Assembly: GCA_030038015.1 (NCBI GenBank)
Contig: JASHPR010000444.1
Location: 1 to 34,094 of the forward strand
From: Streptosporangiaceae bacterium
GTDB taxonomy: Bacteria > Actinomycetota > Actinomycetes > Streptosporangiales > Streptosporangiaceae
Direction: 5' to 3'
DNA: 34,094 nt
Below, one piece after another: positions 13,376 to 14,855 of the stretch. The number at the start of each line of letters is the position of its first letter. Position 1 is the stretch's first letter. The notes under the pieces are model-generated. The model was given only the letters and a program-made list of their open reading frames with translations, ran no database searches and was not told the DNA's origin. The translations under genes and the position numbers were made by a program.

Positions 13376-13567
13376 TCATGCGTCGCCGTCTGCCTTGGCT
13401 AGCATCGCGGCCAGCTCGTCAAGCGTAAGCGCCGCGTAACACTCGCCCACGCCATGACCCCACTCATCGCGATGCTGAGCCTCATAGCCGAAGCCGTCGA
13501 ATCCGATCCTCACGACGTAGCTGGGGTGGTCTTGGATGAAGCGGCCGACGTTGAGGTCATAGTCCAT
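13376..13567 (-). CDS. Hypothetical 63-aa protein
   Basis: Plausible composition; TAGGTT-N6-ATG leaderless-type promoter; divergent from the GntR gene. Confidence 0.5.
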   Translation of the reverse strand: MDYDLNVGRFIQDHPSYVVRIGFDGFGYEAQHRDEWGHGVGECYAALTLDELAAMLAKADGDA

Positions 13568-13649: not shown

Positions 13650-13898
13650 ATGATCGTGATTGACCCGACCGGTCCGATCGCGCCGTACCGGCAGCTGGCA
13701 AGCATCCTGCGCAGGCGGATCGCTGACGGTACCCTGCCGGCTGGCGCCAGGATCACGGAGTCGGACATCACCGAGGAGTTCGAGGTGGCTCGCAACACTG
13801 CGCGGCGCGCTCTGGCGATCCTGCGTGATGAGGGGTTGGTCTACACCATGCCGCAGCGCGGGAGCTACGTCGGGCAGGGTCCGCCCGAAGAAGGGTAG
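13650..13898 (+). CDS. Minimal GntR-family wHTH regulator without an effector domain
   Basis: 'PIAPYRQLASILRRRIADGTLPAGARITESDITEEFEVARNTARRALAILRDEGLVYTMPQRGSYV'. Confidence 0.88.
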   Translation: MIVIDPTGPIAPYRQLASILRRRIADGTLPAGARITESDITEEFEVARNTARRALAILRDEGLVYTMPQRGSYVGQGPPEEG

Positions 13899-14152: not shown

Positions 14153-14329
14153 TGCTACCGGGCGGCTGCAGCCGTCACCGGCCCATCCGCGCATCCGCGG
14201 GCTGGGCGCATCCAGTGCTGCCGCCGTGGACCCATCCGGGCAGCTGAAGGCTGCGCTTCCGGATGCCGCCGCCGGCCGGGTGCCAGCCGCCCGGTGCGTA
14301 CCAGCACCGCCGCCAGCAGCGGTGACATG

Positions 14330-14363
14330 CCAAGAATAAAGACCCCCGGGCGCCTCCCGGGGT
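14330..14363 (-). terminator. Intrinsic terminator (minus strand)
   Basis: ACCCCGGG-AGGCG-CCCGGGGGT followed by CTTTATTCTT. Confidence 0.65.
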
Positions 14364-14690
14364 GGCTCACCAGAACCGGCCAGGAACCGCGGTGCGCCGA
14401 GAGGTGCGACGCGGCGCTCCTCTCACTGCGTTCCGCGAGACCGGAGGTGGAACCCACCACGGGGACCGGCTGGACAAGGCCGGCCAGCCCGGGGGTCCGG
14501 TGTCTGCCGTGTATTAGCCGGCCGCCGCTTGCGGCGCCCAGGCCCGCGACCGCGGTCACCCTGCGGTGCGGCCTGTGCCTGGCCGGTGCGCGCCCCGCTG
14601 GCATGCGGGGTGCTACACGGGACGGCGGCTAGCTGACAGCCACCTCGCGAGTCCGACATCTATGCATACTGTTGGACCACCTCCTTTCCC
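14332..14690 (-). ncRNA. Candidate small RNA / leader transcript with near-perfect SD and 12-codon ORF
   Basis: Minus strand: AAAGGAGGTGGTCC (14687-14674), ATG at 14667 encoding MHRCRTREVAVS*, several GC hairpins, intrinsic terminator at end. Confidence 0.5.
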
Positions 14691-14855
14691 GCGTTAGCCA
14701 GAACGCTATGTCACGGCGCGCCGTGGAGGCAAGCGCGTTATCTGCGCGGCGCTGCGGCGGCGGTCTGCTCGGCGCTGCGGCGGCGGGCAGCGGGTCACCT
14801 GGCGCGGCGCTGCGGCGGTTGGGCAATGCCTGCCAGGCTCACCTAGACTCGGCTC

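Follow-up and report, generated by a model that had tools for sequence, protein, structure and literature searches.

A ribosome-engaging candidate among actinobacterial small RNAs: Ms_IGR-5 carries a whole-tail Shine–Dalgarno sequence and a conserved open reading frame of about 12 codons

What is an extreme ribosome-binding site doing in front of an open reading frame of only 12 codons? This arrangement lies on the minus strand of a 34,094-nt stretch of DNA from a Streptosporangiaceae bacterium, which as a whole we refer to as the window, and a sequence-only reading had proposed it as a candidate unannotated small RNA or leader that might serve ribosome sequestration, attenuation or a dual function. 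We find that positions 14696-14341 (-) are a complete stand-alone small-RNA gene of the Ms_IGR-5 family. The entire Rfam model RF02471 Ms_IGR-5 (positions 1-184) matches the 5′ part of this RNA (14341..14696 as a whole) at 14444-14694, with a covariance-model score of 56.2 bits against a curated cut-off of 45, and R1, a covariance model built in this analysis, scores 86.8 bits over 14438-14697. The earlier call of an RNA gene was therefore right, but not that of an unknown RNA, since its 5′ part is RF02471. Its fold is also more stable than that of shuffled versions (z -3.58). At 358 nt, where the median is about 212, the window copy exceeds most homologs in length because it has two long inserts, by which it also differs from the Rfam family; the hairpins CCCCGC-ATGCCA-GCGGGG and GAGAGG..CCTCTC that had been pointed out are present, but inside these inserts, which most homologs lack. 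Two longer reading frames, 14423-14659 (previously considered as a protein that might explain the constraint) and 14155-14604, gave no Pfam matches and were rejected as protein-coding.

Ms_IGR-5 is already known as an uncharacterised family that is transcribed in M. smegmatis (PMC10454040), S. lividans (PMC8079986) and S. avermitilis (PMC8780764), and the window RNA agrees with it in scoring above the curated cut-off and in being actinobacterial, stand-alone and present in one copy per genome. Its conservation was borne out by homologs across Actinomycetota: at E <= 0.001 the Rfam model found 73 of 398 phylum-wide genomes and 53 of 60 relatives, and our own model (36 diverse members) matched 142 of the 398, with a single copy in all but one genome; the roughly 64% of sampled genomes with no match may reflect either real absence or strict filters. 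Named hosts include Mycobacterium, Nocardia, Rhodococcus, Amycolatopsis, Micromonospora, Frankia, Nocardioides, Actinomadura and Cellulomonas. Homologous loci were collected through the Shine–Dalgarno (SD) and GAGGTG motifs or through models containing both, a procedure that favours conserved members. New beyond Rfam are an SD that spans the whole 16S tail, a mini-ORF, a helix that we call P0, a pseudoknot and changing flanking genes; the ORF, the full 16S complement, P0 and the pseudoknot are described in none of the Ms_IGR-5 papers found. Taken jointly, the anatomy of an RNA gene with a conserved ORF, a tail complement and P0 is well supported, and we hold it with high confidence.

The near-perfect SD reported on the minus strand is indeed present as AAAGGAGGTGGTCC at 14687-14674, within an extended element, GGAAAGGAGGUGGUCC (14674..14689, minus strand), that is complementary to the 16S 3′ tail GGAUCACCUCCUUUCU. 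All 16 nt of GGAUCACCUCCUUUCU can pair with GGAAAGGAGGUGGUCC, at a calculated -29.9 kcal/mol versus -11.6 for AAGGAGGU. The pattern AAAGGAGGTGRTCC has a single occurrence in the 6.69-Mb assembly, where the reversed control pattern has 0, and with <=2 mismatches the SD pattern would be expected 0.16 times in shuffles of the window. As the 16S 3′ end of the host was not found in its own assembly, we used the 16S ends of relatives; the 16S gene terminates in CTGGATCACCTCCTTTCT in 8 of 12 genomes checked, the 16S identity of these gene ends being confirmed for one of the 12. Over 12 genomes, pairing along the whole tail was possible only for the antisense strand of 16S genes, the Ms_IGR-5 RNA and two other sites in total, and in 10 of the 12 Ms_IGR-5 was the only such site besides the antisense strand. 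In 243 distinct homologs, 389 departures from the perfect complement occur over 14 positions, and 386 of them retain pairing as G-U. Of these, 237 are a single fixed G at position +10, so the independent evidence comes mainly from the remaining 149, which are likewise all G-U. A candidate SD lock, CCACCUCC (about 14450-14443, minus strand), is a 16S-like anti-SD in the window-specific P3 insert and could base-pair with the SD of the same RNA; it was set aside as not common to the printed homolog loci, among which only L028 has CCACCTCC, at a different place in the RNA.

The ATG at 14667 opens a real short ORF, as first read: MHRCRTREVAVS (14629..14667, minus strand), with the stop TAG at 14631-14629, is conserved in frame, length and stop. 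An ORF of 10-15 codons stands at the right distance from the SD in 236 of 237 distinct homologs (12 codons in 154), beginning with TTG in 101, ATG in 90, GTG in 27 and, in 18, only with ATT, ATC, ATA or CTG, near-cognate codons that are possible, inferred starts. ORFs started by ATG, GTG or TTG occur in 213 of 236 sequences, compared with 33.8 +/- 5.3 expected when the spacer is shuffled, while the other two frames yield 5 and 15; GC content is 40% at the start region versus 70% in the flanks. The peptide ends in T-x-E-V-x-x-(R/S), with codons of the conserved C-terminal residues doubling as helix strands. Eight deep sequences keep the start, length and stop, and encode a different peptide in another frame. 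Because the ORF lies in another frame in this one lineage, translation looks more conserved than the peptide, and we take selection to act on translation and not chiefly on the peptide. The lineage (L080, L082, L083, L084, L263, L277, L282 and L285) is deep actinobacterial and uses the same stop; its peptides end SGGG/SGGD.., and several members are also devoid of GGAC and of the GUCC loop of helix P3.

Covariation supports a helix between the 5′ end of the RNA and the ORF. In this helix, P0, CGCG at 14690..14693 pairs with CGCG in codons 7-8 (14646..14649; both minus strand). In an alignment of 172 sequences, three P0 pairs and one pair flanking GGAC/GUCC rank highest among 2510 inter-block covarying column pairs; a tree-simulated null, whose tree derives from the same short alignment as the covariation, reached P0 SD-5, SD-4, SD-3 and the pseudoknot flank 0, 1, 0 and 0 times in 200, and the P0 pairs show 9, 3 and 12 compensatory double changes. 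After correction over all pairs, the strongest P0 pair has an E printed as 0.000 and the other three have E 0.4-0.7. It is thus this pair alone that is individually beyond doubt, and the case for the helix rests on its adjacent pairs together. The GGAC inside the ORF (14651..14654, minus strand) can pair either with the GUCC of the P3 apical loop (14472..14475, minus strand), which would form a pseudoknot, or with a GUCC flanking the SD (P1). RNAalifold predicts a GGAC-GUCC helix, and the flanking pair of the ORF GGAC covaries with the P3 loop; support for this putative pseudoknot with the terminator loop is moderate, less strong than for P0, and the window's own version is a 4-bp core only. 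No covariation excess was seen for the P1 flanking pair (ORF-9 with SD+14). P1 and the pseudoknot are mutually exclusive, and neither is an antiterminator of P3 by the covariation and structure evidence. Helix P2 in the whole-length alignment joins ORF codons 8-11 (outer 5′ strand, 14635..14644) to GGCAGACACC (outer 3′ strand, 14499..14508), again on the minus strand; because pairing helped to locate its 3′ strand, its covariation in the 172-sequence set leans in its favour. For a structure of 40 pairs, 87.4% of cells are paired and the covariation score is 0.314, with slid versions reaching at most 0.087; these values come from a separate 36-sequence whole-length alignment of the family, on which the structure was also chosen, and this favours it. 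We depart from Rfam in one helix, the SD-sequestering pairing of the SD with codons 9-11, whose covariation did not go beyond shuffles and which we rejected.

The ends of the gene are also marked. A -10 element, TAGCGT (14703..14708), and a TTG-type -35 element, TTGCCT (14727..14732; both minus strand), which most homologs carry at a distance of 17-18 nt from the -10, place the expected transcript start near 14696. Of 213 distinct upstream regions, 195 have TANNNT at 18-21 nt ahead of the SD (196 with one further away), where shuffles predict 24, which points to a conserved housekeeping-type promoter that would set the 5′ end just before P0. At the other end, GACCCCCGGGC (14487..14497) and GCCCGGGGGUC (14341..14351) form the conserved closing stem of P3, the terminator, beyond which lies a U-rich tail, UUUAUUCUU (14332..14340), all on the minus strand. 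The intrinsic terminator proposed earlier corresponds to a terminator-like site at 14362-14344 (1 found versus 0.2 expected), but the conserved form has this different closing stem. Its neighbours in the window encode, on the upstream side, a FUR-family regulator and a folate-binding GCV_T protein and, on the downstream side, a GntR-type protein and a THAP4-like heme-binding protein; as had been remarked, no gene in the same orientation is close by downstream, the next minus-strand candidate being an ORF at 13567-13376. The GntR-type protein (13650-13898, plus strand) is a single-domain DNA-binding protein of 82 aa that, with the divergent 63-aa ORF at 13376-13567 (-), looks like a small mobile-element-type regulator pair.

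Since the flanking genes vary among lineages, the RNA is not the leader of one downstream gene; varying neighbours and a conserved promoter together make it a stand-alone unit, and the idea of a separate transcript of ~350 nt gains support from its predicted promoter and terminator. The same observations weigh on the view that the locus encodes a leader peptide through which a downstream gene is attenuated. An SD, a short ORF overlapping a hairpin and then an intrinsic terminator do resemble classical attenuators, but when genes are called with a simple codon-position rule, 119 loci have their nearest downstream gene on the opposite strand and 84 on the same strand, and these genes belong to many families; the homolog peptides contain no run of regulatory codons, and no regulated same-strand downstream gene conserved with the leader was found. 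Attenuation of a neighbour, one of the functions first suggested, is accordingly disfavoured and in our view very improbable. One may postulate instead a micropeptide gene, in which the 12-residue peptide is the conserved product and the RNA its mRNA, and the frame, length and C-terminal half kept in 228 sequences would fit. Nevertheless, the conserved residues coincide with helix strands, the eight deep sequences encode a different peptide in their other-frame ORF, the starts are mostly weak and the 3′ part is long and conserved, and we consider this reading unlikely. By the same token the suggested dual-function RNA is possible, but its peptide is not universally conserved, one lineage having the ORF in another frame.

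Two further scenarios were weighed. The RNA might pair with the 16S 3′ tail in 16S maturation or quality control rather than translation; the complement does extend past the usual anti-SD, through GGAUC, to cover the tail completely, but this reading alone would not require the in-frame ORF, which is equally conserved, and we judge it slightly less probable still than a micropeptide. A better candidate, though itself a doubtful one, is a translation-gated base-pairing small RNA acting in trans on mRNAs with a segment that follows the ORF, such as a freed P2 3′ strand, with the mini-ORF controlling only folding or stability. P2 joins ORF codons to that downstream strand, so that translation would expose it, and the gene is stand-alone; against this, the RNA has no conserved long unpaired stretch aside from the SD.

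Ms_IGR-5 probably acts by engaging ribosomes, and ribosome engagement, as first suggested from an extreme SD on a short ORF, remains the best clue to its function. More specifically, we favour, at a little under an even chance, a ribosome-directed mechanism in which the RNA captures 30S subunits and is briefly translated, serving as a 30S decoy or as a sensor of initiation capacity. Because the 5′-proximal SD can pair along the entire 16S tail, 30S should be held more tightly than by ordinary mRNAs, and because the start codon is usually weaker than AUG, the bound subunit would enter elongation slowly. The anatomy suggests that the ribosome would then read about 12 codons, opening P0, the GGAC pseudoknot and P2, and terminate within P2, where the stop codon lies; the RNA could then refold and capture again, and the time spent bound and the turnover of the RNA would depend on start-codon selection and ribosome supply. 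Ribosome-protected reads have been found on Ms_IGR-5 homologs in M. abscessus and M. smegmatis, but the authors caution that short or non-coding RNAs can show non-specific protected reads (PMC4974804). The conserved P2 and P3 are more elaborate than a simple decoy needs, which counts against a decoy, and such a role would matter only if the RNA is abundant.

Comparison with known systems places these features in context. SgrS and RNAIII are dual-function small RNAs with a short ORF, and Ms_IGR-5 likewise is a stand-alone regulatory RNA with a short ORF; it differs in that the ORF is at the extreme 5′ end, the peptide is not shared by all lineages and no target-pairing seed was identified. Another comparison is with the Caulobacter small RNA CC2171 (RF01867), whose model begins GAAAGGAGGUGAUCCA, the complement of the whole 16S tail. 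By covariance-model score, however, it is not homologous to the window RNA (14.6 bits at window 14696-14624 (-) versus a cut-off of 75) and has no match in the host genome, and this alphaproteobacterial RNA is possibly an independent example of the same device; the literature searched yielded nothing on function, on an M. tuberculosis name or on CC2171. More tentatively than the capture mechanism itself, we suggest that Ms_IGR-5 could represent a class of 30S-capturing RNAs, distributed throughout Actinomycetota, that combine a whole-tail hold, a gate formed by a usually weak start codon and an unfold-and-reset cycle of ~12 codons through which initiation capacity is read or buffered, with CC2171 perhaps an independent invention. 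Mycobacterial Ms1 and 6S RNA act on RNA polymerase. If Ms_IGR-5 controls or senses 30S availability, it would be their ribosome-level counterpart, analogous in logic as an abundant small RNA occupying a core gene-expression machine and with no sequence relation claimed, within a phylum to which mycobacteria and streptomycetes belong; with the anatomy defined this exactly, the mechanism is testable by point mutants.

A mobile or phage origin was considered and rejected: no viral contigs carried the pattern, and the sole phage-listed match is doubtful. Plasmid matches came to one, on a Nocardia farcinica replicon of 2.66 Mb. The phage-listed entry, MT835602.1 ('Bacteriophage sp.', L313 2498-2670), is an unverified scaffold with a full Ms_IGR-5 RNA (103 bits); its neighbouring ORFs look cellular, and it is probably an actinobacterial chromosome fragment filed as phage.
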